A DNA stretch of 64,000 nucleotides, taken from NCBI RefSeq assembly GCF_902459645.1, contig NZ_CABPSK010000004.1:558001-622000 (forward strand). The letters run 5' to 3'. The notes beneath the pieces were generated by a model, which worked only from the letters and a program-made list of their open reading frames with translations, searched no databases and had not been told where the DNA came from. Origin of the DNA: Pandoraea pneumonica (GTDB lineage Bacteria > Pseudomonadota > Gammaproteobacteria > Burkholderiales > Burkholderiaceae). The translations under genes and the position numbers were made by a program. Below are positions 25,147-43,026 of the stretch, in pieces. Position 1 is the stretch's first letter. Every line of letters begins with the position of its first letter.

Positions 25147-25192
25147 TTGGCGCAGGCAGTCCTGCTTAGCAGCTGCGCTCGACAGCGGTGAT

Positions 25193-25867: not shown

Positions 25868-25928
25868 CGTATGTCTCCGGTGGTTGGTAGGATCAAGCGA
25901 GCGTATCGGCTTTGCGATCCGCCGATAA

Positions 25929-25944
25929 CTGTCAACGTTGACAG
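25929..25944 (-). promoter_or_regulatory. lux box of luxI
   Basis: Perfect palindrome CTGTCAACGTTGACAG, 62 bp upstream of the luxI ATG. One of five identical 16-bp cores in the window; it fits the CTG-N10-CAG form of LuxR binding sites. Confidence 0.88.
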
Positions 25945-25948
25945 GTGC

Positions 25949-25976
25949 GCCGGTACCCACGGGGAGTGGGTCCGGC
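25949..25976 (-). terminator. Hairpin between repeat-protein gene 1 and luxI
   Basis: GCCGG and ACCCAC pair with GTGGGT and CCGGC around a short loop with one bulged T (11 bp). It has no T-run. It lies just before the luxI lux box and resembles the hairpin at 29888, so it probably insulates luxI from read-through. Confidence 0.55.
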
Positions 25977-26026
25977 GGTTTATGCACAAGAAAACGACGG
26001 CAAGCCTCTAAGCAGAATAGGTCGAA

Positions 26027-29000
26027 TTAGCCGTTTTTGGGGACAAGGCAGACGGCCTTCGTCAAGAACGCCGTTGAAGGGTCATGACAACCATAGCTCA
26101 AATACGCTGTATCGAAAGTCAGACTCCTCGGTGCCACACAACCACTCAGTTCGCACGCCCAATGGAAGTAGCCACCTGGCGGTCTCTCGCCACTCGTGTA
26201 CAGCGACCAGATCAGTTGCATCGTAGTCATGTCGATCCCGATTGCGCCAGGGATGGTGTTTTTCCAGGCGACGGCCTGCTGGGGGCTCATGATGGAATCG
26301 TTCCATCGGAACTCAAATACGTTGCTGACTACCACAGCGTAAGAGGTTGTGCTCCCTGCACTATCCCGGATGGTGATCGTCGTGCGGCCGTTGCGTTGCC
26401 CGATGACAGTACCCGATGCGTTGACGGTTGCGATCGCTGCATTGCCTGACGTGTAGGTGTACGGTGGCACCCCGCCGGTCGCCGCACGCGTCTCCCAATT
26501 TCCCGGTGCCTCAGTACCGGTACGCGGCCAGTTTTGCTTCACCGCAAGGCCGTTGAGAATCATCTCCTCGGTCGAAGGCACCTCCAACTCCGGCAGCACT
26601 TCAATCGTCACCCGAAGTTCCGGGAACAACGTCGCCTGCGCTTCGTTCGTACCGCCATCGAACGCCACCGTCAGTTCGACCACCAGATTCGACTCGTTCC
26701 TCAGCGCTTCAAGCCGCGCCCGTGGAATCGCCTCGCTCAGCCCTTGCGCCGCTTGCAGTGCCGTCACCTCATGCGCCTGCAACAGCACGATGGTGTCGTT
26801 AGCGTCACTCTCGAGCGTGCCGTAGCATCGCAGCCACACTCGCTGCCCCACGGCAATCAGCGGCCACGGTGCCACGTCTACCGTCGGATCTCCTTCGAAC
26901 GACGACAACTTCAACATGCCGTCCTCGGCCTCGGGAATCTCCGGCGTCGGCAGCACCTCATCAGCAAACTCCCCTACCACCAGACTCAGAATCCCAGACG
27001 CGCTAACAACGCCATTGCGCGTCACCGTGTAATGCACCGGCACCGTCTGCCCGACGTACGGTGCGATTCGATTGGCTGGCACTGGGATATCTACCTGCCC
27101 GTCTGCGCTCCCCGGATGCGGCCCAATACCGCCCACACCATCCAAGAACACTTCGATCTCGTCACCCGTCGTCATTCCGTCGTAGGCGACGCGCACCGTT
27201 ACGCCATCAAGCGCATCGGCCGGGTCGAGCACACCATCCGGGGCTTCGAGCACGACTGGCGCCTGCAATAACAACGCAACCCGAAGATGAAGCACCTCGG
27301 ACTGCATCACCGTGCCGCCTCGTGTAAGCGTGTAGCGCACCGGCACTACCGTGCCGTACCACCTGTCCACGACCGCTTTGGGCACCGTGAACGGGAAGTC
27401 CATTGGCACCACAATCGGAATCGCATCGTGGTACTCGCGTGCCCCGTCGCCCCAATACAGGTCGATCATGTCCCCGGCCGTCATCTCGGGATGTTGGTGC
27501 ACCACCGTTGTCGCCCCCCGGGGATAGGCTCCGTCAGGCAAATAATCGCCTTCGGCTTCGGTCACGGTCGGCGCGGGCAAGAGCACGTGCGAGCGCACGT
27601 TCAGCACCAGATCTTTCGAATCGGTCTCGCCGTTTGCGGTCGTGACGGTGTAGTTCACCGTCACCGTTCTGCCTTCGAAGAACTCCACCTTCGCCTTCGG
27701 CACGAACATCTGTACCGTCCGGCCGACCATGGACGCGGTAATCGGAATCGTCGCGATGTGCTCACCCGGCCCCGAGCCCGCCCCGAAACGCACGGTCAGC
27801 ACTTCGCCGAACGTCATGCCCGGATAGGGCAACACGCTCACCGTTGCGTCGACGTCGACATCGGCAGGATCGAGGACATCACCGTTCGCCTCCTCCACGA
27901 TCGGCGGATCGAACCTGAGCGCAGGTAACGGCAGCACCTTAAACACCCGCGCCAACGACGTGAGGCTCGTGCCGCCCACCCGCGTGATTTCGTACAACGC
28001 ACTGACGGTATCGCCACCGTTGGCATTGATTTCGATCACGCCGCGCGGCACGGTGACCGTCACCGGCCCCACCTCTGTGACCGTAATCGTGCCAGTGGCC
28101 TGTCCGCCTGCCGACGTTCCCAGCCAGAACCACGTCACGCTGTCGCCGACAGCCATTTCAGGCCATGCGGGCAGGGTCATCGTCGCCCCGTCCGGGACCA
28201 GTTCAGGATCTAATTCGCCTCCCATTTCGCCCTGCACAAACGGCGGCGCCAACTGCACGATGGCTAAGACGTTGAGAGGCAGATGCTGCGATTCGCGCGA
28301 CCCTTGTCCCGCTTGCACGGTGTAGTACACGTCGGCGCGTCCGCCCGCGAAAGCCGCTACATCGTTGTACGGCACCAAGAACGTTACCGTATCGCCGACA
28401 TCGCCCGCCTCCAAGAATCGATAATCCGTATAAGACACCGGCGCGCCCCCACCCGATGTGCCCACCCAATGCATCGTGACCGTATCGCCCGCCGCCATAC
28501 CCGACCATGCGGCGATATCGACCGTCGCGCCGTTGGCGACATTCGCGGGGTCCAGCGTGCCGCCCACGGCTTCTCGCACGTGGGGGGCGGGCAGCGACAC
28601 CGGCGTGCCGGTCAGCGTGAACGATGTTCTCGAAGACCGCCCTTTTGCTGCGCCACCGGCCCCCGTCACGCGGTAAAACACGGAACCTTGGCCCGGCACC
28701 GACTGCCCCAGAATGTCGTTGGGAATTTGGAACAACATCGAATTGCCGGTCAGCGTCTTGGTATCGGAGTACGTCACGTCATGCCCACCGAACGCGTGCC
28801 CTTCGAAGATCAGTTCCACTGAATCGCCGGTCGCCATGTCGCCATTGCGGATGACAATCGCTGACGCGACATCGCCGTTCAGTGAATCGAAGTCGAGGGT
28901 GTCGTCGATGAGGTCGATCACATCAGGCGCGAGATAATTCGAGCCGCCCACGTCGACTTCAATGTAGGCGTTAGGTGCCCATTTCGACCAGTTGTTGACG

Positions 29001-29734
29001 ATGTCTCGAATGTCGTAGGAAACGGGCATGTTCTCGCTATCGCCCGCGTCGTCGATGACCTGCTCGCTGACCATTACTACTAAGTCCTGGCCCACTTGCG
29101 AAGCATCGAGCGGCGGGACGGGCACGCTTTGCGAGCCCCAGCGCAAGATCAGCCGATCCCCTTCGGCCATGTTTTCCCACGCCAGAATGGTCACTGGCAG
29201 GCCTTGCGCAGGAATTGGCTTCTGAATCGGCCCGGGAGGCAGGATGGCTGGCGCGAGGTTCTCGTTGATCGGCGTGGTCTGATCCGGGTCGAAACCGCCC
29301 GGGACGGTGATCTTGACTCTGACGGTCGTGCGCGGCGACGGCACCGGCACCTCGTCGAACGGCGAGACGCGCTCGTACCAGACTTCGATTTCGCCTTCGC
29401 CCGCTTCGATCACTTTCGGCACCGGCGCACGAATCGTACGCATGGGCGCGTTGGGATCTTCGCCGATGATGACGTCGACAACATCGCCCTCGATGCCCCA
29501 GTACAAGCGAAAGACGTCGCCCTTGAGGAAAACGATGTTCCACGGGATCTGTACATCGATCCATCCCTCAGGGTCGATCAGGTCGACGTAGCGAATGCCG
29601 CCGTTGGCGACCGCGAGCGGCACGACGGGCGCGAGCAAGTTGCGAGGTAGCGCATCGCGATACGGCGATTTGCGCACGTCGCGCGGCACTTGAGCAATTG
29701 ACTCTTGGGGAGCCAAGGGATCTCGAAAATTCAT
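26027..29734 (-). CDS. Large Ig-like repeat protein 1 (quorum-sensing regulated)
   Basis: A 1,235-residue protein starting MNFRDPLAPQESIAQ after a strong GGAGG. No signal peptide or membrane segment is visible. After a ~165-residue N-terminal domain come about eight degenerate 100-115-residue beta-rich repeats, each with a pattern like LPAPxVxEAxGGxLDP...GATVxxxxWxxMxxGDxVTM and ending ...VYYTV...LxLNV. Near residue 1,090 a BIG2-like domain follows (GGVPPYTYTSGNAAIATVNA...VIGQRNGRTTITI). The last ~95 residues hold four Cys (WACELSGC, YGC, AVCLVPKNG). Looks like an adhesin or surface rod, though its export route is unknown. 80% or more similar by eye to the next gene; a lux box lies 131 bp upstream. 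Confidence 0.85.
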   Translation of the reverse strand: MNFRDPLAPQESIAQVPRDVRKSPYRDALPRNLLAPVVPLAVANGGIRYVDLIDPEGWIDVQIPWNIVFLKGDVFRLYWGIEGDVVDVIIGEDPNAPMRTIRAPVPKVIEAGEGEIEVWYERVSPFDEVPVPSPRTTVRVKITVPGGFDPDQTTPINENLAPAILPPGPIQKPIPAQGLPVTILAWENMAEGDRLILRWGSQSVPVPPLDASQVGQDLVVMVSEQVIDDAGDSENMPVSYDIRDIVNNWSKWAPNAYIEVDVGGSNYLAPDVIDLIDDTLDFDSLNGDVASAIVIRNGDMATGDSVELIFEGHAFGGHDVTYSDTKTLTGNSMLFQIPNDILGQSVPGQGSVFYRVTGAGGAAKGRSSRTSFTLTGTPVSLPAPHVREAVGGTLDPANVANGATVDIAAWSGMAAGDTVTMHWVGTSGGGAPVSYTDYRFLEAGDVGDTVTFLVPYNDVAAFAGGRADVYYTVQAGQGSRESQHLPLNVLAIVQLAPPFVQGEMGGELDPELVPDGATMTLPAWPEMAVGDSVTWFWLGTSAGGQATGTITVTEVGPVTVTVPRGVIEINANGGDTVSALYEITRVGGTSLTSLARVFKVLPLPALRFDPPIVEEANGDVLDPADVDVDATVSVLPYPGMTFGEVLTVRFGAGSGPGEHIATIPITASMVGRTVQMFVPKAKVEFFEGRTVTVNYTVTTANGETDSKDLVLNVRSHVLLPAPTVTEAEGDYLPDGAYPRGATTVVHQHPEMTAGDMIDLYWGDGAREYHDAIPIVVPMDFPFTVPKAVVDRWYGTVVPVRYTLTRGGTVMQSEVLHLRVALLLQAPVVLEAPDGVLDPADALDGVTVRVAYDGMTTGDEIEVFLDGVGGIGPHPGSADGQVDIPVPANRIAPYVGQTVPVHYTVTRNGVVSASGILSLVVGEFADEVLPTPEIPEAEDGMLKLSSFEGDPTVDVAPWPLIAVGQRVWLRCYGTLESDANDTIVLLQAHEVTALQAAQGLSEAIPRARLEALRNESNLVVELTVAFDGGTNEAQATLFPELRVTIEVLPELEVPSTEEMILNGLAVKQNWPRTGTEAPGNWETRAATGGVPPYTYTSGNAAIATVNASGTVIGQRNGRTTITIRDSAGSTTSYAVVVSNVFEFRWNDSIMSPQQAVAWKNTIPGAIGIDMTTMQLIWSLYTSGERPPGGYFHWACELSGCVAPRSLTFDTAYLSYGCHDPSTAFLTKAVCLVPKNG

Positions 29735-29864
29735 GGTGAACCTCCACAGGGGAAAGTCGGTGGCCGCTGTCGATGGCACAGCAACGCCGTCAGATCGCGA
29801 GTGCTATGCGCTGCCGCAGCCCACGACACACCCTCATCTCGCCACCGAAACCGTCGCCCGCCAA

Positions 29865-29880
29865 CTGTCAACGTTGACAG
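29865..29880 (-). promoter_or_regulatory. lux box of repeat-protein gene 1
   Basis: Same 16-bp core, extended here to the 20-bp perfect palindrome AACTGTCAACGTTGACAGTT, 131 bp upstream of the start codon. Confidence 0.88.
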
Positions 29881-29887
29881 TTAAGCT

Positions 29888-29916
29888 GCCGGTGCCCATG
29901 GGATGTGGGCACCGGC
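29888..29916 (-). terminator. Hairpin between the two repeat-protein genes
   Basis: Perfect 11-bp stem GCCGGTGCCCA/TGGGCACCGGC with a 7-base loop, 52 bp past the stop of gene 2 and 8 bp before the lux box of gene 1. No T-run. Homologous to the hairpin at 25949. Confidence 0.6.
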
Positions 29917-29967
29917 GTAGCTATGTGCTGAGGGATGACAGGAAGCCGCTAGGCAGGACAGGCGGGG

Positions 29968-32900
29968 CTAGCCGTTCTTAGGGACGAGGCAGACGGCCCT
30001 GTTCAAGAACTCTATTTCCGGGTGGCCGCATCCAAGTAACAACCTTTCTGAGGTGTAAGTTGGTCTTCTTGTCCCCTCACAGCCTGCCAATTGACAGGCC
30101 CAGTAGGTGAAACCACCCGAAGGTTTTTCGCCGCTCGTATATATCGACCTCACCAGTGCAGCCACGTCCGGGTCGATCCCAATCGCACCGGGAATGCTGT
30201 TCTTCCACGCGACGGCTTGCTCTGGGGTCGCGCTGGAATCAAGCCACATGAATTGGAATACATTACTGACGATTACCCTGTACCAAGTCGCAGTCCCTCG
30301 ACTATCTCGGACGGTGATTGTCGTGGTGCCGTTACCTTGCCCGATGACGGTGCCCACCGCGTTGACCGTGGCGATCCCCGCATTGCCCGACGTGTAGGTG
30401 TACGGTGGCACCCCTCCAGTGGCAGGACGTGCTTCCCAATTCCCCGGCGCCTCTGCTCCGGTCCGCGGCCAGGTCTGCTTCACTGCACGACCGTTGAGAA
30501 TCATGTCGGTATTTGGCACCTCAAACTCCGGCAACACCTCAATCGTCAACCGAAGCTCAGGGAACAACGTCGCTTGCGCCTCGTCATCGCCGCCGTCGAA
30601 TGTCACCGTCAGTTCGACAACCAAAGGCGACTCGTTCCTCAGTGCCTCCAGCCGTGCCCGTGGGATCCGCTGACTCAGCCCTCGCGTCGCTTCCAAAGCT
30701 GTCAGTGAATGCCCCTGCAACAGCACGATGGTGTCATTCCCGCCGTTTTCCAGCGTCGCATAGCATCGCAGCCACACCTTCTGCCCCGCAGCGATGAGCG
30801 GCCACGGCGACACTGTCACCGAGGGATCGCCATCGAAAGAGGACAGTTTCAACATCCCGTCTTCGGCCTCGGGAATCACCGGCGTCGGCAGCGCGTCTTC
30901 GGCAAACTCACCCACGACCAAACTCAGAATTCCAGACGCACTGACACGTCCATTGCGCGTGACCGTGTAATGCACCGGCACGGTCTGCCCAACATACGGC
31001 GCAATCCGATTAGCTGGCACCGCAATACTCACTTGGCCATTCGCGTTGCCCGGATGCTTTCCGAACCCACTGCCCCCGTCCAAGAACAACTCGATCTCGT
31101 CACCCGTGGTCATCCCTTCGTAGGCAACCCGCACCGTCACGCCCTCCTGCGCATCGACCGGGTCGAGTACGCCGTCCGGGGCTTCTAGCACTTCAGGCGC
31201 AGGCAGCGGCAACGCAACCCGCAGACTCAACACTTCCGAGTGCATCACCGTGTTACCCCGAGTGATGGTGTAGCGCACCGGCACCACGGTGCCGAACCAC
31301 CGGTCCACGACGTCTTTCGGTACTGAAAACGGGAAGTCCATCGGCACGATGATGGGTACGTCATCGTGATACTCGCGCGCGCCCTCGCCCCAATACAAAT
31401 CGATCCGATCTCCCGCCGCCATCTCCGGGTGCTGATGGATCACCGTGGTGACGCCTCGGGTATACGCATCTTCAGGCAGATAATCGCCCTCGGCCTCAGT
31501 CACGCTCGGTGGGGGCAAAAGCACTTGTGAGCGCACTGTCAGCACCAGATCTCGCGAATCGATCTCGCCTGACGACGTGCGCACGGAGTAGTTCACCGTG
31601 ACCGTTCTGCCTTCGAAGAACTCCACCTTCGCCTTCGGCACGAACATTTGCACGGTGCGGCCGACGTTACTGCCGGTAATCAAAACCGATGCGGTGTGTT
31701 CGCCCGCGCCCGTGCCCGCACCAAAGCGCATCGTCACCAGCTGGCCTGATTCCATGCCGGGATAGGGAGCGACGCTCACGGTAGCGTCGACGTCGACATT
31801 GGCAGGATCGAGTACGCCATCGATTGCCTCCTCCACCACCGGTGGATCCAACATGAGTGCAGGTAATGGCAACACCTTGAACACGCGCGCCAACGACGTG
31901 AGGCTCGTGCCCCCGACTCTCGTGATTTCGTACAACGCACTGACGGTATCGCCACCGTTGGCATTGATCTCGATCACGCCGCGCGGCACGGTGACCGTCA
32001 CCGGCCCCACCTCTGTGACCGTAATCGTGCCAGTGGCCTGTCCGCCTGCCGACGTCCCCAGCCAGAACCACGTCACGCTGTCGCCCGGCGTCATCTCCGG
32101 CCAAGCGGGCATGGTCAGCGATGCACCGTCGGGCACGAGTTCAGGATCCAGCTCCCCGCCGACTTCGCCGCCCACAAACGGTGGCGCCAACTGCACGATC
32201 GCCAGGACGTTGAGCGGCAGATGCTGCGACTCGCGCGACCCTTGCCCCGCCTGCACCGTGTAATACACGTCGGCGCGTCCGCCCGCGAACGCGGCAATGT
32301 TGTTGTACGGCACCAGGAACGTCACCGTATTGCCGACGTCGCCTGTGTCTAAAGACCGGTAGTCCGTGTAGCTGACCGGTGCGCCTCCGGCGTTTGTCCC
32401 CACCCAATGCATCGTGACCGTATCGCCCACCGCCATACCCGCCCACGCGGCGATATCGACCGTTGCGCCGTTAGCCGCATTCGCGGGATCAAGCGTCCCA
32501 CCCACCGCTTCGCGTACGCCGGGTGCGGGCAGCGACACCGGCGTGCCCGTCATGGTGAACGACGTTCTGGAAGAGCGCCCTTTGGCCACGCCACCGGCAC
32601 CACTCACTCGGTAATACACCGAACCTTGCCCCGGCACTGCCTGCCCCAGCACATCGTTGGGCAGCGGGAATAGCAGCGAATTGGCGGTCAGCGTTTTGGT
32701 GTCGGTGTACGTCACGTCATGGCCGCCGAAGGCGTGTCCTTCGAATGTCAGCTCAACCGAGTCCCCCGCCGCCATATCCGCATTGCGAATGACAACTGCG
32801 GTTGCGTCACCGCCGTTCAACGCGTCGAAGTCGAGTTCGTCGCCGACGAGCTCGTTCACGTCGGGTGCCATGTAGTTCGAGCCGCCAACATCGACCTCGA

Positions 32901-33672
32901 TATATGCGTTCGGGGCCCATTTCGACCAGTTGTTGACGATGTCTCGAATGTCGTACGAGACGGGCATGTTCTCGCTGTCGCCCGCGTCGTCGATGACCTG
33001 CTCGCTGACCATCACCACTAAGTCCTGCCCCACTTGCGAGGCGTCCAGCGGCGGGACGGGTACGCTTTGCGAGCCCCAGCGCAAGATCAATCGATCCCCT
33101 TCAGCCATGTTTTCCCAAGCAAGAATCGTCACTGGGAGGCCTTGCGCAGGAATCGGCTTCTGAATCGGCCCGGGCGGCAGGATGGCAGGCGCGAGGTTCT
33201 CGTTGATCGGTGTCGTTTGATCTGGATCGAAACCGCCCGGGACGGTGATCTTGACTCTGACAGTCGTGCGCGGCGACGGCACCGGAACCTCATCGAACGG
33301 CGACACGCGCTCGTACCAGACTTCGATATCACCCTCTCCCGCTTCGATCACTTTCGGCACCGGCGCACGAATCGTGCGCATCGGCGCGTTGGGATCTTCA
33401 CCAATGATCACATCAACGACATCGCCCTCGATGCCCCAGTACAAGCGAAAGACGTCGCCCTTGAGGAAAACGATGTTCCGCGGGATCTGTACATCGATCC
33501 ATCCCGCAGGGTCGATCACGTCGACGTAGCGAATGCCGCCGTTGGCAACCGCGAGCGGCACGACGGGCGCGAGCAAGTTGCGAGGTAGCGCCTCGCGATA
33601 CGGCGATTTGCGCACGTCGCGCGGCGCTTGAGCAATTGACTGTTGGGGAGCCAATGGATCTCGAAAATTCAT
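29968..33672 (-). CDS. Large Ig-like repeat protein 2 (quorum-sensing regulated paralogue)
   Basis: A 1,234-residue tandem paralogue of the preceding entry, with the same start MNFRDPLAPQQSIAQ, same GGAGG site, the same eight-repeat layout, BIG2-like domain and C-terminal four-Cys domain ending AVCLVPKNG. N-terminal ~290 residues are nearly identical; divergence rises toward the C-terminus (for example WACQLAGCEGTRRP against WACELSGCVAPRSL). The longer upstream frame is not coding. Its lux box is 132 bp upstream, matching the 131 bp of gene 1, so promoter and gene were duplicated together. No signal peptide; location in the cell is unknown. Confidence 0.85.
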   Translation of the reverse strand: MNFRDPLAPQQSIAQAPRDVRKSPYREALPRNLLAPVVPLAVANGGIRYVDVIDPAGWIDVQIPRNIVFLKGDVFRLYWGIEGDVVDVIIGEDPNAPMRTIRAPVPKVIEAGEGDIEVWYERVSPFDEVPVPSPRTTVRVKITVPGGFDPDQTTPINENLAPAILPPGPIQKPIPAQGLPVTILAWENMAEGDRLILRWGSQSVPVPPLDASQVGQDLVVMVSEQVIDDAGDSENMPVSYDIRDIVNNWSKWAPNAYIEVDVGGSNYMAPDVNELVGDELDFDALNGGDATAVVIRNADMAAGDSVELTFEGHAFGGHDVTYTDTKTLTANSLLFPLPNDVLGQAVPGQGSVYYRVSGAGGVAKGRSSRTSFTMTGTPVSLPAPGVREAVGGTLDPANAANGATVDIAAWAGMAVGDTVTMHWVGTNAGGAPVSYTDYRSLDTGDVGNTVTFLVPYNNIAAFAGGRADVYYTVQAGQGSRESQHLPLNVLAIVQLAPPFVGGEVGGELDPELVPDGASLTMPAWPEMTPGDSVTWFWLGTSAGGQATGTITVTEVGPVTVTVPRGVIEINANGGDTVSALYEITRVGGTSLTSLARVFKVLPLPALMLDPPVVEEAIDGVLDPANVDVDATVSVAPYPGMESGQLVTMRFGAGTGAGEHTASVLITGSNVGRTVQMFVPKAKVEFFEGRTVTVNYSVRTSSGEIDSRDLVLTVRSQVLLPPPSVTEAEGDYLPEDAYTRGVTTVIHQHPEMAAGDRIDLYWGEGAREYHDDVPIIVPMDFPFSVPKDVVDRWFGTVVPVRYTITRGNTVMHSEVLSLRVALPLPAPEVLEAPDGVLDPVDAQEGVTVRVAYEGMTTGDEIELFLDGGSGFGKHPGNANGQVSIAVPANRIAPYVGQTVPVHYTVTRNGRVSASGILSLVVGEFAEDALPTPVIPEAEDGMLKLSSFDGDPSVTVSPWPLIAAGQKVWLRCYATLENGGNDTIVLLQGHSLTALEATRGLSQRIPRARLEALRNESPLVVELTVTFDGGDDEAQATLFPELRLTIEVLPEFEVPNTDMILNGRAVKQTWPRTGAEAPGNWEARPATGGVPPYTYTSGNAGIATVNAVGTVIGQGNGTTTITVRDSRGTATWYRVIVSNVFQFMWLDSSATPEQAVAWKNSIPGAIGIDPDVAALVRSIYTSGEKPSGGFTYWACQLAGCEGTRRPTYTSERLLLGCGHPEIEFLNRAVCLVPKNG

Positions 33673-33803
33673 GGTGAACCTCCACAGGAGTAAGCCGGTG
33701 GCCGCTGTCGATTGCCCAGCATTGCCATCGAAAACGCGTGATCTGCGCTTGGTCGCAGCCCACGACATTCCCCCATCACGACACCGAATTCCTCGCCCGC
33801 CAA

Positions 33804-33819
33804 CTGTCAACGTTGACAG
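33804..33819 (-). promoter_or_regulatory. lux box of repeat-protein gene 2
   Basis: Same 16-bp core, 20-bp perfect palindrome AACTGTCAACGTTGACAGTT including flanks, 132 bp upstream of the minus-strand start. Confidence 0.88.
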
Positions 33820-33860
33820 TTACCCCACCCGCTCCATACGCAGCGCGCCTCTCCGGGTGC

Positions 33861-33876
33861 CTGTCAACGTTGACAG
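33861..33876 (+). promoter_or_regulatory. lux box of the divergent 780-residue gene
   Basis: Same 16-bp core, 57 bp from the previous one and 66 bp upstream of the plus-strand start at 33942, close to the 62-bp spacing at luxI. Confidence 0.85.
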
Positions 33877-33941
33877 TTTCCGCCCGCGAATCGCAGCGCC
33901 ACACTTCGCGAACGCACTTCTCCCCCGCCTGGAGGTGGATC

Positions 33942-36284
33942 ATGAAACTGAGTAGCAGCATGCTTCGAAGAAGCGTCGATCCGATGGTAGATGAGCTGAG
34001 CCCACCGGTCGTTCGAGCCGCAAGCGCGCCATCAAAACGATTCGGCAACATGCCGGAGGTCGACCCCGCCGCATTGGCACCCCGACCCGACGACTTTCCC
34101 CCCGATGCCTTTCCCTACAACCTGGTCCTCGAGAGCTGGAGAGACGACCCGCTGGATTTTCACGTCCCGTTGTTGCCGGAGATGATCGCCGGATGGTTTT
34201 ACAAAGTGTCCCTCGATGGCGATATGCGCCCCGAACAGTTGGTGATAACGCCAGAGGATAAGGCCGCGGGCTTCTTTACCATCACGTTGCCAGCTGAGGA
34301 CCGCCCCGTCTCGAACACATACAACCTTCAATACGTATGCCGGAGCCAATTCGACGAAAACTGGAACGACATCACGCCCCCGTATTTCTTCACGATCGAT
34401 TACCTCGTGCCCGGCCGGCCCTTCCCCGGCGAAGCCGAACTTCCCGAGGGGGTGTCTGAAGAGGGACTGACGTCGGGCCGACTTGAGGAGCTGGGCGACG
34501 TACTGCCTTGCGAGATACCGGGTTATCAGGACCGCATTCAAGGCGACACCCTCGTCGGTGTGCTGACGAACGTGGGAAGTGGCGAAACGTTGGAACTGGA
34601 GCCCTACACCATCCCATACGGACAGACGGACGATCCGCTGTTCCTCAACGTCTCGAGAGAGCAGCTCCTCGCGCTCGGCGACGGCCTCATCTGGATGCAG
34701 TATCGAATCACCGACTTGGCAGGCAACGTGTCGGTGTTGTCGGCACCAGTAGACTTCGAGCTGTTCCTCACCGGCGGCATCGATAATCTCGAACCACCGC
34801 TGGTGCCCTTGCATGAAGACGACAGCCTCATCGATGAGGCCGACGCGCGCACGCCCGTCGACGTGCATATCCCGGGGCATCCCGACATCCTATTTGCTGA
34901 CACCGTGGTCGTCCTTTGGGGCAGCCGCCAACAGCCGCCCGTCGTATTCGACGGCCCGGACAGCGACATCGACGTGATTCTCGAGATCCCCGTGCCGTAT
35001 GGCGATGTCCTTGGGGAATGGGCCGACGCCGATCAGGACGAAGACGGCAATGCGACGATCACCGTCAACTATGTCGTCTACCGCGCAGGACGTGAAGTCG
35101 GCAGACCGCGCGATGGCACACCGGTCAGAGTGAATCTGTCGCAGGCCGGCGGCGAAGATCCCGATCCGGATACGCCGGAAAACGAAGCGCTCGGGCGGCC
35201 GATCGTACGCCATTCCCAATGGGAGACGGGCGAGCAAGAGAATTTCATTCCCAATGCTTCGCTTGAGGAAGATCACACGTTCATCATTCCGTGGTTCAAA
35301 CGTGACGCCGACGGTGGCATCACCACCGAAACGGCGTTCAAACTCGGCGACATCCTTGTCTTGAGATATGGCGAGCAAGTGATCGACCCGACCCGCTCGA
35401 TCAACGGTCAGGACATGGCCAACCAGATCGATATCGAAGTGCCCCTGCCGTGGGAGGCCGTCGCCGCCGAAGGCAGCGGGACGCACGAAATTCAATACGT
35501 GGTCACCCGAGTCATCGACGCCGATACGACAAACATCAGCTATTCGCCGCTGGATACGGTCATCGCTGACGATGCGGGCGACTTGCCGGGCGGCGGCGAC
35601 CCGCTCGGCAAGGCCTCCTTCGAGCACATGTACGTCGTCTGGGGCAACGTCGGTCGCAACGGCTTTGAGCGCATCATCGTGCCCCCTTACGCCAACATGC
35701 AAGTGGGCGACATTGTGCGTGTACACGTCACCGCCAACTACTACGATCCGGACGATGCCGAACTCCTCGACCCAGTCCCGGCGGCCGAGTGGGGCGGACC
35801 GTTGAATGTCAACCCTCACCCCGTGTACAACTACGAAATGCATCTCATCGCGGACGATATCGATAACGAACTGTCGTTCTACTGGCCGAAGGAATTGATC
35901 ATGTGGGTGTGGCCATACGGACAATCACGCATTGAATACACGGTGGCACGCGCGGGAGGCACGCCGGTGGTGACGGCTCCCCTTGGAAACGATCATCTGA
36001 CCGACACCACGGGCAACGGGCCGCCTGACGGCGATCGCTCGCCGAGCCGCGGCCTCGCGCTCACCGACATCATGCAGATCAAGTCGGCGAGCGAGCGCCA
36101 GAAAGCGCTCAACGAATGGGGGCGGTATCACCGCACGACACGCGCACAACGGCGAGCGCGTCGAGCGAAACGCGCTACCCCTTTGCGCGTGATGTCCGGC
36201 GACCTTAAAGCCGAGAGTCTGATCGCCAAGAAGCTCGCCCAGATCGCCGCGCGGCCCGTCCCGGAGGCAACGTCAAAGGAGTAA
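33942..36284 (+). CDS. Large acidic repeat protein 3 with basic C-terminal tail
   Basis: A 780-residue protein starting MKLSSSMLRRSVDP after GGAGGTGG; the frame upstream is the lux-box region. I do not recognise a named family. It holds several ~130-150-residue beta-rich units distantly like those in the two neighbours (phrases such as DTVVVLWGS, ITVNYVVYRAGREVG, GDIVRVHVTANYY, RIEYTVARAGG). Most is very acidic; residues ~700-780 instead are strongly basic (RRARRAKR). There is no signal peptide, BIG2 domain or Cys-rich end. It is transcribed divergently from repeat protein 2 with its own lux box, so it is probably a functional partner. Confidence 0.8.
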   Translation: MKLSSSMLRRSVDPMVDELSPPVVRAASAPSKRFGNMPEVDPAALAPRPDDFPPDAFPYNLVLESWRDDPLDFHVPLLPEMIAGWFYKVSLDGDMRPEQLVITPEDKAAGFFTITLPAEDRPVSNTYNLQYVCRSQFDENWNDITPPYFFTIDYLVPGRPFPGEAELPEGVSEEGLTSGRLEELGDVLPCEIPGYQDRIQGDTLVGVLTNVGSGETLELEPYTIPYGQTDDPLFLNVSREQLLALGDGLIWMQYRITDLAGNVSVLSAPVDFELFLTGGIDNLEPPLVPLHEDDSLIDEADARTPVDVHIPGHPDILFADTVVVLWGSRQQPPVVFDGPDSDIDVILEIPVPYGDVLGEWADADQDEDGNATITVNYVVYRAGREVGRPRDGTPVRVNLSQAGGEDPDPDTPENEALGRPIVRHSQWETGEQENFIPNASLEEDHTFIIPWFKRDADGGITTETAFKLGDILVLRYGEQVIDPTRSINGQDMANQIDIEVPLPWEAVAAEGSGTHEIQYVVTRVIDADTTNISYSPLDTVIADDAGDLPGGGDPLGKASFEHMYVVWGNVGRNGFERIIVPPYANMQVGDIVRVHVTANYYDPDDAELLDPVPAAEWGGPLNVNPHPVYNYEMHLIADDIDNELSFYWPKELIMWVWPYGQSRIEYTVARAGGTPVVTAPLGNDHLTDTTGNGPPDGDRSPSRGLALTDIMQIKSASERQKALNEWGRYHRTTRAQRRARRAKRATPLRVMSGDLKAESLIAKKLAQIAARPVPEATSKE

Positions 36285-36301
36285 CATCGAGCAACACCGT
36301 A

Positions 36302-36341
36302 CGCACGGGTCCGGCAACGCAGGTATCGCCGGTCCCGTGCG
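36302..36341 (+). terminator. Hairpin after repeat protein 3
   Basis: 14-base arms (CGCACGGGTCCGGC and its near-complement) pair with one mismatch around a 12-base loop, 18 bp past the stop. Weak T content follows. A second shorter hairpin (CGCCAAG/CTTGGCG, 36364-36388) then CTTTCC lies just before the next gene. Confidence 0.6.
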
Positions 36342-36395
36342 ACGCATTCTCGATTTCCCACTACGCCAAGGCGCGATGCGTCTTGGCGCTTTCCT

Positions 36396-37355: not shown

Positions 37356-37900
37356 ACCGTATCCCTTCACCGTCCTCTGTGTCGTCACTCAGGCGAGCGC
37401 GCGTGGGTATGCGAGGGCTTTGCCTAGGTGTCGCCGCTGCCGTCGTGTTGCCGTGGGTCGCCGCGTGGTGGCTCGTGCCCGACAAGCGCATCGACTGGGA
37501 CTGCCACGCGCACATCGAATTCGACACCCGCACGTCAGCCGGCGAACACGTGCAGGTGTTCGGCTTGATGGAATCGCAATACCACAAGGACGGCAGCGGC
37601 AACGCCCGTTTTTCGGGGCGTGTACAACAAGACGGGAAGTCCACCGTCGTGCATCGCGCGAGCGAATTCAAATACGCCGCGCTCGATCGCTGGGTGCGTG
37701 TGAACACGGTGCACACGAGCCGCTTGCGAGACGACAACTCCCCCGACGATCTCGTCTATCGATTCGTCTATCCGGGCTTTCAACCCGATCACACCGATTA
37801 CTTCGAAGTGATGCGCGTGGGCGATGGCGCCAGCGTTGGCTTTAACGGTCAGCCTCGTGCGTATTGCGCACCTGTAGCACCGCACGCAGTGTCCAGCTAA
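37352..37900 (+). CDS. FidL/ToxS-like inner-membrane protein
   Basis: A 182-residue protein with a short cytoplasmic basic N-terminus, one membrane segment (LCLGVAAAVVLPWVAAWWLV) and a ~140-residue periplasmic domain starting DWDCHAHIEFDTR with a second Cys near the end (RAYCAPV). Size, topology and coupling to a ToxR-like regulator match FidL of Salmonella and ToxS of Vibrio, which assist or stabilise the regulator's periplasmic domain. Sequence resemblance is modest, so the family call rests partly on context. Translation is coupled to the regulator through ATGA at 37352-37355. Confidence 0.68.
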   Translation: MNRIPSPSSVSSLRRARVGMRGLCLGVAAAVVLPWVAAWWLVPDKRIDWDCHAHIEFDTRTSAGEHVQVFGLMESQYHKDGSGNARFSGRVQQDGKSTVVHRASEFKYAALDRWVRVNTVHTSRLRDDNSPDDLVYRFVYPGFQPDHTDYFEVMRVGDGASVGFNGQPRAYCAPVAPHAVSS

Positions 37901-37926
37901 ACGGACGATAAGGACTGCGCCAAACG

Positions 37927-37957
37927 AAAAAAACCCGGTGACCGTTAGGCCACCGGG
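37927..37957 (-). terminator. Rho-independent terminator of autotransporter 1
   Basis: On the minus strand CCCGGTGGCC..GGTCACCGGG is followed by TTTTTTT, 56 bp after the autotransporter stop. Confidence 0.9.
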
Positions 37958-38012
37958 CAAGCCCCAGCTCAAAAAGTCGGGGCGCTTCGTTCTTCGTTAA
38001 GATTCACACGCC

Positions 38013-40331
38013 TCAGAATTGATAGCGCGCGCCGACGTTCACACCCCACGGCTTATCGACGCGAGTGCCTACCGAATAGCTGCCGTCGACATAAACCTGC
38101 AAGCGCTTGGCCATCTGTGCCGCCACACCCGCGCCCACTTCGAATCGCGTGCCGGAGATATCGTTCTTCATCTCGATGCCGTTGACCGTGACCGAGTTGC
38201 TGCCGATGAACTCGTGCGCCACAGCCAGCTTGGCATACGGACGGAACGTGCCCTTCGTGGTTTCGAACGTTTTACCCACGTTCACGCCCAACGTACCGAG
38301 CACCGAACGCGTCGCCGTCGTCTCGGCATGCATGCCGTTATCCAGCGTGAAGTCGCTGCCGCCCGCCCACATACCGGCCACTTGTGCAAACGGTTCGACG
38401 AACCATTGGTTAGGCAGTGCAAACATGCGGCCAACTTCCACCGAAGCGCCGAAACCGTGGCTCGCGAAGTCACCCTTGCTGGGCGTGCCGTCGCTCATGC
38501 GCACATTGATTTCCGACGTATAGCGGTTGTACTTCGCCACCGTGTCGACGTAGAAGCCGTTGTTGCCTAGCCAAGTGGCGTAAAGACCTGCCGTGTGGCT
38601 GTCGATGGAGCCGCGCGAACCGGTATCGAAACGCAGTTGGTTCGAGCTGACACCGGCCATACCACCGACGAGCCAATGCCCGTTGGCGTTACGGCTCACG
38701 ACGCCGTCGGCACCTGCCAACACGCCCCACTGGTCCTGCGAATAACCGGTACCCACGGTCGGACGGGCATTGATGCGCGAGCCATACGTACGCGCCCATG
38801 CACCACCAGTGTCGCCATCGGCAAAGCGCAGTTCGCCCATGCGGGTACGCAGCGCCGTCTGCTCGCCGAGCCAGACGGTCGGCAAGGCACTGTGCACGCC
38901 AATCACGGCTTCGGTGCCCGGCGACACTTCACCGGTACGCTCCAGATACCACGACTGCTCGCCACCGGCTTCGCCCGACGACTTCAACACGTACGTGTAG
39001 ACACCCGCGTCGACCTTGTCACCAACCAGCGAGAATGCCGCATCGTCGCCCGCCTGACTGACCAGTTCATGCGTCTCGACACCGCCTTCGCGGCCAGTGT
39101 TCTGAACGGCCAACTGATAGTTACCGGTGGCATCGCGATCGCTCACGTTGAGCTTGTCGCCCTCGCCGGTCACGAGATCGGCGTGCATGGCGAACGTGCC
39201 TTCGCCCGAGAGCTTGGCAACGTCCAGCGTGTGCCACGTCCCTTGCGATGCGGTGCCGTGAATATCGACGATACCGCCAGCCATCGTGAGGTCGCCGATG
39301 GCGCTGTCTTCCACCAGACGCCACGTGCCCTGATCGCTCAGCGTGAGCTTGTCGGCACCGATGATCCGCCCGGTGAGCGAACCGCCGTTGGTGATTGTCA
39401 CGTCGCTATCGACGCGATCGTGAAAATCGAAGTCGCCTTCGAGCTGGCTGTTATCGACAACGACGTTCAGCGTGATCGGGTCATCGCCTTGCGAGTTGTG
39501 ACCAGCCGAAATCAGCTTGCCGTCTGCGCCGAACAACGTCGAGCCGTTCGCAATCACGATATCGGCGACAAGCGACGTCCCATAAGACTCTTCGTGATCG
39601 ACACGAATTGCCGCGTCTCGCTCGCCCTCGACCCGCGTGTTGGACAGGTACAACTGGTTGACCGTCTCGTCCAGGTGCCTGTAACTGAACATGCCGATAC
39701 CGACCCCGCCGCCCAGCACCGACGAGTTGTGCAAGCGCGCCGTCGAGTGCAGTTGTTGGATGCCATAGTTGTATATCGAGTCGGGATCGTACTGCGCAAC
39801 GATCGTCGAACCTTGGACGGAAAGCTCACTGCCGTGCGAAACCAAGATGGCGCGCTGCACCCCTTTAATGGTGCTGTCGACGATGTGCATCTGCGCCCCT
39901 TCGCCCTCCGGCCGCCCCCCCACCTCGCCACCCACTTTGATGGCGTAGGAGTTTGAGGACTCCAGGTATGAGTTTCGCAACGAGACCTGATTCTTCTCGC
40001 CAACGAACAGCACGCCGTAGCCGTCGGGTGTCGAGTCTCGGTTCCCAATCATCGTCAGGCCGTTGAGATCGGCCCATGCATTGGAACCCGCGCGCAGGTA
40101 GATGTATGCCGGTGACGCATTGGAGGCGCCAGTAATCGTGAGCGACGATCCTTGACCCAGCGTCCAGCCTTCAACGACGTCGGGATGCTCAGGGCCGTCG
40201 ATATAGATGTGTTCGTTAATAATTTCTCGGGCGTTAGCCCACGGTGCCATCCCCCCGACCAGCAGGGCAACGGCCGCGCAAATGGCTCGCGTCCGTTTCG
40301 GAGAAAGAACATGTTGCGGCAAAGTTCGCAT
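38013..40331 (-). CDS. Autotransporter 1 (type Va, pertactin-like passenger)
   Basis: A 772-residue type Va secretion protein. A signal peptide spans about residues 1-34 (ICAAVALLVGGMAPWANA). The passenger is a pertactin-like beta-helix with short repeats of the form xLxLSxxGxWxLxxDS and MxGGxVDIxG (around 330-370), then the autochaperone-like end. From about residue 500 a ~270-residue beta-barrel begins (WARTYGSRINARPTVGTGYS) and ends with the aromatic terminal ...GVNVGARYQF. ATG at 40331 fits the signal peptide; the longer frame does not. It is likely an adhesin or surface protein. Four 10-bp repeats lie upstream; no lux box. Confidence 0.88.
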   Translation of the reverse strand: MRTLPQHVLSPKRTRAICAAVALLVGGMAPWANAREIINEHIYIDGPEHPDVVEGWTLGQGSSLTITGASNASPAYIYLRAGSNAWADLNGLTMIGNRDSTPDGYGVLFVGEKNQVSLRNSYLESSNSYAIKVGGEVGGRPEGEGAQMHIVDSTIKGVQRAILVSHGSELSVQGSTIVAQYDPDSIYNYGIQQLHSTARLHNSSVLGGGVGIGMFSYRHLDETVNQLYLSNTRVEGERDAAIRVDHEESYGTSLVADIVIANGSTLFGADGKLISAGHNSQGDDPITLNVVVDNSQLEGDFDFHDRVDSDVTITNGGSLTGRIIGADKLTLSDQGTWRLVEDSAIGDLTMAGGIVDIHGTASQGTWHTLDVAKLSGEGTFAMHADLVTGEGDKLNVSDRDATGNYQLAVQNTGREGGVETHELVSQAGDDAAFSLVGDKVDAGVYTYVLKSSGEAGGEQSWYLERTGEVSPGTEAVIGVHSALPTVWLGEQTALRTRMGELRFADGDTGGAWARTYGSRINARPTVGTGYSQDQWGVLAGADGVVSRNANGHWLVGGMAGVSSNQLRFDTGSRGSIDSHTAGLYATWLGNNGFYVDTVAKYNRYTSEINVRMSDGTPSKGDFASHGFGASVEVGRMFALPNQWFVEPFAQVAGMWAGGSDFTLDNGMHAETTATRSVLGTLGVNVGKTFETTKGTFRPYAKLAVAHEFIGSNSVTVNGIEMKNDISGTRFEVGAGVAAQMAKRLQVYVDGSYSVGTRVDKPWGVNVGARYQF

Positions 40332-40403
40332 TTCGGTGGCTTTCCATAAATTTGAAAACGACCGAAGCGTATGACGCAAACCTCACGATTTCTCCAAACA
40401 ATC

Positions 40404-40443
40404 ACTGAAAAACACTAATATTCACTGAAATTCATCGAAATTC
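40404..40443 (-). promoter_or_regulatory. Four 10-bp tandem repeats in the autotransporter 1 promoter
   Basis: Plus-strand units CACTGAAAAA, CACTAATATT, CACTGAAATT and CATCGAAATT follow each other without gaps, 73 bp upstream of the start. A ten-bp period places all on one DNA face, as in binding arrays of OmpR/ToxR winged-helix proteins (ToxR consensus TNAAA-N5-TNAAA). Confidence 0.7.
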
Positions 40444-40475
40444 CCCTAATCTAACGCCAAACATCCTGACGACCA

Positions 40476-42719
40476 TCAGAATGTATATCGCACCCCGAGC
40501 TGCACGCCCCACGGTTGATTCACGTGGTGCCCGACGCTCGACTCCACTTCCGAATAGAGCTGAAGGTTCTTGCGCAACTGGCCCGTCACCCCCGCCCCGA
40601 ACTCGAATCGGGTGCCAGATAAGTCGTTGTTGAAGCTCACGCCGTTGACGTTCACCTGATTGCTGTTGATGAATTCCTGCACGATGGCGAGCTTCAGGTA
40701 CGGCTGAATGCTGCCGCCATTCGACAGCGCGACGGTCTTGCCGAAGGCCGCGCCGATCCGGGCCTGTACCGACCCGGTGCGCGAGGTATTCGACTCCATG
40801 CCGTTGGAGAGCGTAAAGTCGTCGCCGCCGACACGCAGCAGGGCAAGCTGCACATACGGTTCGACGAACCAGGCGTTACCGAACGTCAGGTGGCGACCGA
40901 ATTCCAGCGTCATCCCTACGCTGTTCTCGCCAAAGCTCCCGAGCGCCCCCGTGCCGTCGCTCATCACAACGTTGGCATCGTTGGAATAGTGATTGAAGCG
41001 CACGACACCGTCGAAGTAATAGCCGGTCGTCCCAAGCCAAGTGGTGTAGAGGCCGCCGGTGTAGCTATTCACGCCGCCGGTCGATCCGCCGTCGAAGCTC
41101 AGCTTGCTGTGGCTCGTGCCCAGCAGCACCCCGGCGAGCCACGTTCCGCCCCACGCCTTGCCCACCACCATATCGGCCCCGCCGATCACGCCGTACTGCG
41201 TTTGCCGGTAATCGACGCCTGCACTTGGTGTGGCGTGAAACTGCTTGCCGAAGGTGCGAACCCAAACCCCGCTATTGCTCTGGTCCGCCAAACGAATGTC
41301 CCCGAGGCGGCTGCGAAGCACGGCCTGCTCGCCGTACCAGACCGTCGGCGCCACGCCCGAGATGCCGATCACGGTCTTGGTGCCCGGCGAGAGGTCGTCC
41401 TCAGGGTCTTGCGGATCTGTCGCCAACACCCAGTTCGTACCGTCCTGACGCAGGTCGTAGCTGTACACGCCCGCATCGACCTTCCCGCCCACCAGCGAGA
41501 ACGCCGCGCCACCGCCGCCGGTGGTCACCACCGTGAGCGGCGTCAAATTGCTCGGCTGCGCGCCGGAATTGCGCACATGTAGCTGATAGCTTCCTGTCGC
41601 GTTGCCGGTGACCGCAAGCAAGTCGCCGGAATGCGTGGCAATGTTCGTGTCCATCAGGAACGTGCCATTGCCGGAGAGCGTGCCCACTGTCAGTGTGTGG
41701 AAATTGTTGGTGCCTAGCGCCGTGCCCGAGATGTCGATGCTGCCGCCGTTCATGGTGACCGTTGGCACGGTGTTGTTTGCCGTGAGCAACCATTTCGCGT
41801 TCGAGTTCACGGCCAGCGACGTGAGGTTCACGAGTGACCCCGTCAGTGAAGCGTTGTTTTGCAACGTCAGATTGACCGTGGCTGTGCCGTCGCCCGTCAC
41901 GTTGCCCGTCAACTGGGAGTTGTCGACGGTGACATTGGACGTGATCGCGCCGATCGCGTTGACGACGTTGCCATCGCCCCCCGAGACTTTGCTGCCGTTC
42001 TCGATCGTCACCGTAGCGGTGCGGGCGCCGGTGACGCCAGGCTGCGGTTGAATCAGAATCCCCGACCCCGTCGTGCCGGTGACTGTCGCCCCGTTGATCG
42101 TGGTGGTGGACGAAGTGCCCCCAACCGCTGTCGCCACCCAAATACCGTTCACGCCGGTGACCGTGCCGCCGTTCACCGTCACCGTCGAATCGAAATTGAC
42201 GATCCCCGCGTTGAACCCGCCGACATTACCGGTGCCGGACGACACCGTGCTGTTATTGAACGTGAGCGTCCCTTTCGTGCCGACCTGTGCACCGAACGCG
42301 CTACCGGTGATCGTGCTGTTAGTGACGGTCGCCGATGGCGCAATCGTCGACCCACCTGCCGACCCAAGCGACAGCCCAGAACCGCCCGCGCTGCCCACTG
42401 TGGAATTGGTGATGGTGCCCGTCGTGTTGAGGAGCTGGACGCCGGGGTTGAGCCCCGTCGACTGCACTGTGGCCCCGTTGACGGCCAGAATCCCGCCCGT
42501 CCCCACGGTAATCAGGTTGGTGGCTGCGCCGGGTTCTACGGTCAACGACCCGCCGTTCATCACCTGCCACGTTTCAGTCGGGTCGCCTGGTGCGGCTACC
42601 GTTTGTGTCGTCCCGTCGACGACTCCCGCGTGGGCTTGGGCCGCCATGCAGGTCATGAGGACCCCGATGGCATGAGCAATACGATGACGCGATGGCGCCT
42701 TAGGTTTTGACGTTCTCAT
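40476..42719 (-). CDS. Autotransporter 2 (type Va), quorum-sensing regulated
   Basis: A 747-residue autotransporter. Signal peptide about residues 1-31 (AHAIGVLMTCMAAQAHA), Ser/Thr/Gly/Asn-rich beta-helical passenger with many short strands (GGTVTGVNGIWVA, NGATVTGTTGSGILI) and a C-terminal barrel starting near WVRTFGKQFHATPSAGVDY and ending ...GVQLGVRYTF. AAGGGGGC precedes the ATG at 42719; the longer upstream frame is in the leader. The barrel is closely related to that of autotransporter 1; the passenger differs. A lux box lies 218 bp upstream and a long inverted repeat lies in the leader. Confidence 0.9.
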   Translation of the reverse strand: MRTSKPKAPSRHRIAHAIGVLMTCMAAQAHAGVVDGTTQTVAAPGDPTETWQVMNGGSLTVEPGAATNLITVGTGGILAVNGATVQSTGLNPGVQLLNTTGTITNSTVGSAGGSGLSLGSAGGSTIAPSATVTNSTITGSAFGAQVGTKGTLTFNNSTVSSGTGNVGGFNAGIVNFDSTVTVNGGTVTGVNGIWVATAVGGTSSTTTINGATVTGTTGSGILIQPQPGVTGARTATVTIENGSKVSGGDGNVVNAIGAITSNVTVDNSQLTGNVTGDGTATVNLTLQNNASLTGSLVNLTSLAVNSNAKWLLTANNTVPTVTMNGGSIDISGTALGTNNFHTLTVGTLSGNGTFLMDTNIATHSGDLLAVTGNATGSYQLHVRNSGAQPSNLTPLTVVTTGGGGAAFSLVGGKVDAGVYSYDLRQDGTNWVLATDPQDPEDDLSPGTKTVIGISGVAPTVWYGEQAVLRSRLGDIRLADQSNSGVWVRTFGKQFHATPSAGVDYRQTQYGVIGGADMVVGKAWGGTWLAGVLLGTSHSKLSFDGGSTGGVNSYTGGLYTTWLGTTGYYFDGVVRFNHYSNDANVVMSDGTGALGSFGENSVGMTLEFGRHLTFGNAWFVEPYVQLALLRVGGDDFTLSNGMESNTSRTGSVQARIGAAFGKTVALSNGGSIQPYLKLAIVQEFINSNQVNVNGVSFNNDLSGTRFEFGAGVTGQLRKNLQLYSEVESSVGHHVNQPWGVQLGVRYTF

Positions 42720-42842
42720 GGGTGCCCCCTTATGCAGGAAAGACAAACCGACCGATACGACAAGGCCGGCGGCGTAGCGTGATGCCACGTCGGCCGGTAC
42801 AAAACCCTCGGCACAGGACAATGCGGCCTGGATGCAAATCAA

Positions 42843-42886
42843 CCGATTGGCTAACGCATCGTCTGAAACGCTGCGTTAGCTATCGG
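42843..42886 (-). repeat. Long inverted repeat in the autotransporter 2 leader
   Basis: Perfect 9-bp arms GCTAACGCA/TGCGTTAGC around 13 bases, extended outside by CCGAT/ATCGG. It lies between the lux box and the start codon, so it could be an mRNA structure or a second operator. Confidence 0.7.
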
Positions 42887-42936
42887 ATTCGCGGCCCGTA
42901 TGTTGGAAAACTAAGCTTGGGAGTCGAAATTTTCAC

Positions 42937-42952
42937 CTGTCAACGTTGACAG
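42937..42952 (-). promoter_or_regulatory. lux box of autotransporter 2
   Basis: Same 16-bp core, with flanking CAC and GTG making a 22-bp perfect palindrome, the longest of the five. 218 bp upstream of the start codon and 75 bp past the stop of the upstream glycosyltransferase gene. Confidence 0.85.
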
Positions 42953-43026
42953 GTGCCCCATCGGCGGAATCGCGCTATGGTGAGCGCGCCGCCATTACGC
43001 TGAGAAATGACTGGGGATGGGGGTTT

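Follow-up and report, generated by a model that had tools for sequence, protein, structure and literature searches.

We analyzed a stretch of 64,000 nucleotides (nt) from Pandoraea pneumonica (NZ_CABPSK010000004.1, positions 558,001 to 622,000; hereafter the window, part of contig C4 in a genome of 5.85 Mb), in which a convergent luxR/luxI pair lies beside ORFs encoding three large repeat proteins (RP1, RP2, and RP3) and two autotransporters (AT1 and AT2). Five copies of a single 16-letter palindrome stand ahead of luxI, RP1, RP2, RP3, and AT2 (Table 1). Here, we ask what this palindrome is and which genes, within and beyond the window, it may connect to quorum sensing.

Table 1. Genes, palindromes, and predicted promoter elements of the locus, in window coordinates (aa, amino acids; AHL, acyl-homoserine lactone).
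Feature	Coordinates	Strand	Description
luxR (luxR1 of Pandoraea)	24433..25146	+	237 aa, predicted AHL receptor and activator
luxI	25193..25867	-	224 aa, predicted AHL synthase, convergent with luxR
Predicted -10 of luxI	25900..25905	-	TACGCT; phased element 24-29 nt after the box
Predicted lux box 1	25929..25944		For luxI; exact palindrome, ends 61 bp before the start codon
RP1	26027..29734	-	1235 aa, modular repeat protein
Predicted -10 of RP1	29836..29841	-	CGAGAT; weak (2/6)
Predicted lux box 2	29865..29880		For RP1; exact, 130 bp before the start codon
RP2	29968..33672	-	1234 aa, tandem duplicate of RP1, 83% identical
Predicted -10 of RP2	33775..33780	-	CGTGAT
Predicted lux box 3	33804..33819		For RP2; exact, 131 bp before the start codon; hexamer ending in T at the expected place on the RP2 side only
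Predicted lux box 4	33861..33876		For RP3; exact, 65 bp before the start codon; hexamer ending in T at the expected place on the RP3 side only
Predicted -10 of RP3	33900..33905	+	CACACT
RP3	33942..36284	+	780 aa, divergent from RP2, distant relative of RP1
Terminator-like hairpin after RP3	36364..36388	+	Weak; the scan gives 12 sites versus 14.7 in shuffles
AT1	38013..40331	-	Autotransporter, PF03797 and PF03212; 144 bp downstream of AT2, same strand
AT2	40476..42719	-	747 aa, autotransporter with pertactin-like passenger; PF03797 7.6e-47, PF03212 1.4e-31
Predicted -10 of AT2	42908..42913	-	TAGTTT
Predicted lux box 5	42937..42952		For AT2; exact palindrome, 217 bp before the start codon

Both proteins of the pair, which an earlier note on this DNA had recognized as LuxR and LuxI at one edge of the cluster, carry Pfam domains above cut-off (LuxR, PF03472 Autoind_bind, 1.1e-30, and PF00196 GerE, 1.5e-17; LuxI, PF00765 Autoind_synth, 1.3e-12, 48.1 bits versus a cut-off of 24). 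The closest relative of LuxR1 with a solved structure is RhlR of Pseudomonas aeruginosa, as an engineered form (E = 4.7e-43) ahead of the natural one (5.1e-30), and the similarity spans most of the protein (residues 9-231 of 237). The host, signal, and targets of RhlR differ from those of LuxR1. The convergent luxI/luxR1 pair and a 20-bp lux box that precedes luxI have been published, as has the presence of LuxR solos in nearly all Pandoraea (PMC6691176), and the same source reports C8-homoserine lactone (C8-HSL) in four of nine Pandoraea type strains, as the sole AHL detected in those four active ones; papers given here by PMC number are drawn on as excerpts. The earlier note knew of no named system of this composition. 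That statement fails for luxI/luxR1, C8-HSL, and the lux box before luxI, and stands for the regulon: a literature search, by title or abstract start, found no account of a Pandoraea quorum-sensing regulon, the 16-mer itself in no paper, and no paper that links quorum sensing with toxin complex, Rhs, and lux box.

The palindrome, CTGTCAACGTTGACAG, is exact at each of the five places where the earlier note had reported it, and no further site with three or fewer mismatches occurs within the window; 100 dinucleotide shuffles of the window gave a mean of 0.29 and a maximum of 2 sites at that threshold. Genome-wide, the palindrome occurs nine times without a mismatch, once with one mismatch, and three times with two, whereas an assumed base composition of 63% G+C predicts 0.0008, 0.04, and 1.0 such sites per genome, respectively. 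These counts against shuffles and base composition rule out a chance origin of the sites, while the three two-mismatch sites may be chance matches. Of the ten sites with at most one mismatch, contig C1 has five (four exact, one with a single mismatch), all of them ahead of a gene, and the palindrome is not common in the genome outside a promoter context. What had been described as a compact regulon within 17 kb therefore counts no fewer than ten sites, of which five lie beyond the window. The promoter-like placement proposed for the window holds, the boxes ending 61 to 217 bp before start codons. In form the palindrome agrees with a lux box, being part of a dyad of about 20 bp, matching CTG-N10-CAG, and standing ahead of a synthase gene. 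At AT2, box and flanks make a perfect 20-bp palindrome, ACCTGTCAACGTTGACAGGT (42935-42954), and AC...GT flanks surround the box at all 14 aligned autotransporter sites.

Boxes, their positions, their spacing, and their co-occurrence with luxI can be read directly from the genomes. Among 32 Pandoraea genomes, 15 contained the exact 16-mer, at 91 sites in total, and the reversed pattern, used as a control, had no site in any of the 32. A luxI homologue was encoded in 17 genomes, namely the 15 with an exact box plus G026 and G028. At one mismatch or fewer, the box was found in 17/17 luxI carriers versus 0/15 noncarriers (131 sites in all, 91 exact versus 40 with one mismatch), and a LuxR1 orthologue (at least 64% identity) in 16/17 and 0/15, respectively. 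In 16 of the 17 carriers a box lies 54 to 63 bp before luxI (10 exact, 4 with one mismatch, and 2 with two). The seventeenth carrier, G004, is without a box before luxI, and its truncated luxI joins autotransporter-like sequence.

The sequence downstream of the boxes is phased as well. All 91 exact sites were taken, and 77 were oriented by plausible gene position before any -10 was viewed. Counting from the box, T occurs at +29 in 59 of the 77 aligned sites; weighted across 17 target groups this corresponds to 12.7/17, the next best T position past +6 reaching 8.2. The pattern NANNNT peaks at +24 (6.8/17 groups), a value reached by none of 2,000 circular-shift shuffles, and a hexamer with a final T and at least 3/6 matches to TATAAT lies within 2 nt of +24 at 71/77 sites versus 8 to 38/77 at seven control positions. 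Taking the last T as -7 places the predicted start at about +36 and the box center at about -43.5. This phased, weak -10-like element implies a predicted box center near -43, as in LuxR-type activation. A scan of 25100-43100 for sigma-70-type promoters with both hexamers gave none, versus 4.5 in shuffles.

Beyond the genus, the exact 16-mer was found in 28 of 398 genomes of the family, comprising the 15 Pandoraea and 13 of 366 others, with one site in each of the 13. We inspected five of these 13 loci, L131 to L135. Three of them (L132, L134, and L135) have a luxI that starts 60 or 61 bp past the box (57 in L132 with an earlier ATG), TGTAAT at +24 to +29, and a luxR divergent from luxI; L131 and L133 had no luxI within the 3 kb viewed. 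LuxR and LuxI of L134, the one pair compared, are 45% and 38% identical to the proteins of the window.

A further pattern concerns the divergent RP2 and RP3 genes. Nine relatives with a single exact box between RP2-like and RP3-like genes were compared, and in four of these (G001, G006, G007, and G012) a hexamer ending in T occupies +24 to +29 on both sides of the box. The window and G031 have two boxes, each with such a hexamer solely on the side of its own gene. This arrangement fits a putative ancestral bidirectional box that was later divided into one per gene. G002 and G020 have the hexamer on one side only, G020 perhaps with a degraded second box, and in G015, G016, and G022 neither side has it at the exact offset, the sequence reading one base shifted.

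Together, these data indicate that the palindrome is very probably the lux box of the Pandoraea LuxI/LuxR1 pair, such that one signal would raise luxI and a regulon of at least ten promoters. The lux-box reading, already advanced in the earlier note, gains support because the box co-occurs with luxI across 32 genomes, because a -10-like element is phased 24-29 nt after the box in unrelated promoters, because three of the five non-Pandoraea loci inspected have this 16-mer before luxI at the same distance, and because -10-like hexamers flank the single divergent box in four of nine relatives and are split between the two boxes of the window. From these patterns we infer LuxR1 binding, activation, signal dependence, and transcription starts as follows. 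LuxI would make an acyl-homoserine lactone, and signal-bound LuxR1 would bind the 16-bp box (the 20-bp AC...GT palindrome at autotransporter promoters). With the box centered about 43 bp before the transcription start, LuxR1 would serve RNA polymerase in place of a -35 element where the -10 is weak. The signal would thereby raise its own synthase along with RP1, RP2, RP3, and AT2 in the window and, outside it, the 148-aa, cold-shock, delta-60 repeat, 320-aa plus 1635-aa RHS-repeat, and 197-aa proteins encoded behind the boxes of contig C1.

Several observations weigh against this assignment. G026 has luxI and one box, with one mismatch, and no LuxR1 orthologue was found in its 89% complete assembly, nor were RP1 relatives. 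G004 keeps seven exact boxes and luxR1 though its luxI lacks the first 43 residues and the promoter. Independent events are few: the rpoB tree needs five luxI changes, three of them forced by well-supported branches, and although the box tracks luxI in all three forced changes, the sign test gives only p = 0.25 and cannot reach significance because there are only three independent contrasts. In the promoter alignment, the 17 target groups were made by hand, and L065 was aligned on its RP3-like side under an RP1/RP2 label, its RP1-like gene lying on the other side. The alignment omits 14 of the 91 sites because no clear gene follows them; 13 of the 14 have T at +29 in one or both orientations, a post hoc count with two tries per site. 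A strict, orientation-free -10 test (A at position 2, T at position 6, and at least 4/6 matches to TATAAT) found 9/91 sites at +24 and the same 9/91 at +55, so the -10s are weak. Finally, the two-sided pattern was not seen at the exact offset in five of the nine single-box relatives.

The palindrome might instead be bound by another regulator, for example a LuxR solo (LuxR2 or LuxR3), with luxI merely one of its targets. Distant LuxR homologues are encoded in most of the genomes, solos are reported in nearly all Pandoraea (PMC6691176), and G026, with luxI and a box and LuxR1 not found, would suit such a regulator. However, among the genomes devoid of luxI and LuxR1, 11 encode distant LuxR homologues and yet contain no box, even when one mismatch is allowed, and the same box precedes luxI in three non-Pandoraea loci, where the neighboring LuxR, in the one case compared, is the 45% identical protein described above; we consider this alternative very improbable. 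Alternatively, LuxR1 could bind and repress, or occupy without activating, at some boxes, given that the direction of regulation is not visible in the present data and that CepIR is said, in the excerpted source, to regulate genes both positively and negatively (PMC1766932). A box center near -43, the weak -10, and the lack of a sigma-70-type promoter in 25100-43100 fit activation better than occlusion, and we regard repression or mere occupancy at some boxes as very improbable. In a third view, a mobile or repeat-associated element would have carried the palindrome along with the repeat genes, and its copies would have no regulatory meaning. RP1 and RP2, as tandem duplicates with alike upstream regions, speak for this view, but three features practically exclude it. 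In the aligned stretch, which runs from 30 nt upstream of the box to 75 nt downstream of it, the target groups have little in common except the box, some nine bases flanking it, and the -10-like element; boxes precede unrelated genes; and the repeat genes of the luxI-less G014 and G021 have no box.

Those repeat genes (loci L119, L120, and L121), and in G021 also an autotransporter resembling AT2, have been kept in the absence of luxI, LuxR1, and box. As a LuxR homologue of lower similarity (26-27% identity) is encoded nearby, their control may have been rewired; no lux-box-type palindrome that could serve as a replacement was found in the stretches examined. A short stretch is common to two G021 regions.

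The predicted lux box resembles that of Vibrio fischeri, ACCTGTAGGATCGTACAGGT, which is centered at -42.5. The outer arms ACCTGT...ACAGGT are identical in the V. fischeri box and the AT2 box, and the predicted center agrees to within about one base, whereas the inner bases differ and the target genes are unrelated. The published Pandoraea systems, LuxI/LuxR1 (PMC6691176) and PpnI/PpnR1 (PMC4556143), belong to the same genus and have the same convergent pair; the 20-bp lux box reported upstream of luxI has 14/20 positions in common with the box described here (PMC6691176). In the excerpts of both papers luxI is the sole target named, to which candidate targets, spacing, and distribution are added here. 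CepI/CepR of Burkholderia cenocepacia likewise has a box upstream of the synthase gene and was the subject of a motif-based genome search for targets (PMC1766932). The CepR consensus given there, CTGTAAAAGTTACCAGTT, agrees with CTGTCAACGTTGACAGTT at 14/18 positions, counted by hand, and PMC4540015 gives another cep-type lux box from Burkholderia. The cep boxes are imperfect, 30/89 library genes having putative boxes that are generally 50-60% identical to the consensus (PMC1766932). In contrast, the Pandoraea sites are mostly perfect palindromes.

The four exact boxes of contig C1 stand before genes for a 148-aa protein without assigned identity (114 bp downstream), a cold-shock protein, named from its sequence by eye (60 bp, also counted by eye), a delta-60 repeat protein (TIGR02608; 56 bp), and a 320-aa protein (61 bp), behind which a 1635-aa RHS-repeat protein is encoded; the one-mismatch box precedes a 197-aa protein without a Pfam match. 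Across the genus, the largest hand-made groups among the 77 aligned sites were autotransporters (14), luxI (10), RP1/RP2-like genes (10, one mislabeled), RP3-like genes (7), a family of 313-337 aa (7), and other repeat proteins (6). Groups of three or fewer sites include RHS-repeat proteins, VRP1-domain proteins with immunoglobulin (Ig)-like modules, delta-60 repeat proteins, and a cold-shock protein, one member each of the RHS-repeat and VRP1 groups having been scanned for domains. L142 and L146 (G001 and G012) are large genes preceded by a box, and L142, the one scanned, has a VRP1 domain (PF03538) and Big_1 modules. The exact boxes at L061, L071, L082, L096, and L110 have no clear gene but are followed, at +24 to +29, by a hexamer with AAT as its last three bases; these boxes perhaps serve small genes or small RNAs.

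RP1 comprises eight detected modules of about 105-115 aa, six of them strong, a weak Big_2-like stretch, and a unique C-terminus. A profile built from the six RP1 modules, which match by construction, detected eight modules in RP1, eight in RP2 (six strong), and three weak ones in RP3. Residues 282-542 of RP3 align with residues 32-290 of RP1 by blastp (26% identity, E = 1.7e-10), and RP3 had no Pfam or NCBIfam match at 0.1. Near residues 1083-1138, RP1 and RP2 weakly resemble Big_2 and intimin modules, below curated cut-offs (RP1 Big_2, 0.0043). As the Big_2 scores were 17.4 and 16.9 bits against a cut-off of 22.8, with none for RP3, the three proteins are not assigned to the bacterial Ig-like families, and the main modules match no Pfam or NCBIfam family above cut-off. 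A crude hydropathy measure for signal peptides did not separate RP1-RP3 from the autotransporters (RP1 and RP2, 1.76; AT2, 1.51). Among 249 genomes of the family, 19 encoded RP1 relatives; 18 of these belong to Pandoraea.

AT1 and AT2 both have a C-terminal autotransporter beta-domain (type V; PF03797 and TIGR01414). AT1 was set aside as a direct target, having no box of its own in the window scan at three or fewer mismatches. No terminator-like site lies between AT2 and AT1 on their strand, and AT1 may be cotranscribed by read-through from AT2. Between RP3 and AT1, positions 36396-37355 encode a protein with a Trans_reg_C DNA-binding domain, and a protein with a very similar start sits near luxI in L015 (G020). 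G+C content is 60.5% in 24001-32000 and 61.6% in 32001-40000 versus 62.6-64.8% in the other 8-kb windows, which could come from acquired DNA or from the makeup of the repeat genes. Elsewhere in the genus, at L144 (G004) and L054 (Pandoraea aquatica) luxI is without its first 43 residues and promoter, whereas luxR1 and seven exact boxes are retained; the truncation is a natural loss of the synthase. Searches also reported one internal stop codon in each of G015:C7:127471-128142 (luxI) and G002:C3:189046-189756 (luxR).

The predicted regulon is larger than first thought and belongs to an already described quorum-sensing pair; judged by our searches, its targets are new. As a weak guess, its output would be a set of modular adhesin-like and Rhs-type proteins that act at the surface or on contact. 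A bolder proposal, which we hold as doubtful, is a near single-affinity regulon: with one perfect palindrome at most sites and a constant distance from it to the -10, LuxR1 may switch all promoters together and not in a graded order. Genus-restricted giant modular proteins and Rhs-type or VRP1-type proteins would have been recruited repeatedly into a common surface or contact arsenal, gained and lost as a unit with luxI and luxR1. Quorum sensing in Pandoraea was previously known by its genes and signal, and the predicted box yields candidate direct targets in 15 genomes. It would tie an uncharacterized family of giant repeat proteins, nearly confined to Pandoraea, to cell density, and would offer a clean case in which to study the behavior of a regulon whose sites are nearly identical and the change from one box between divergent genes to two.

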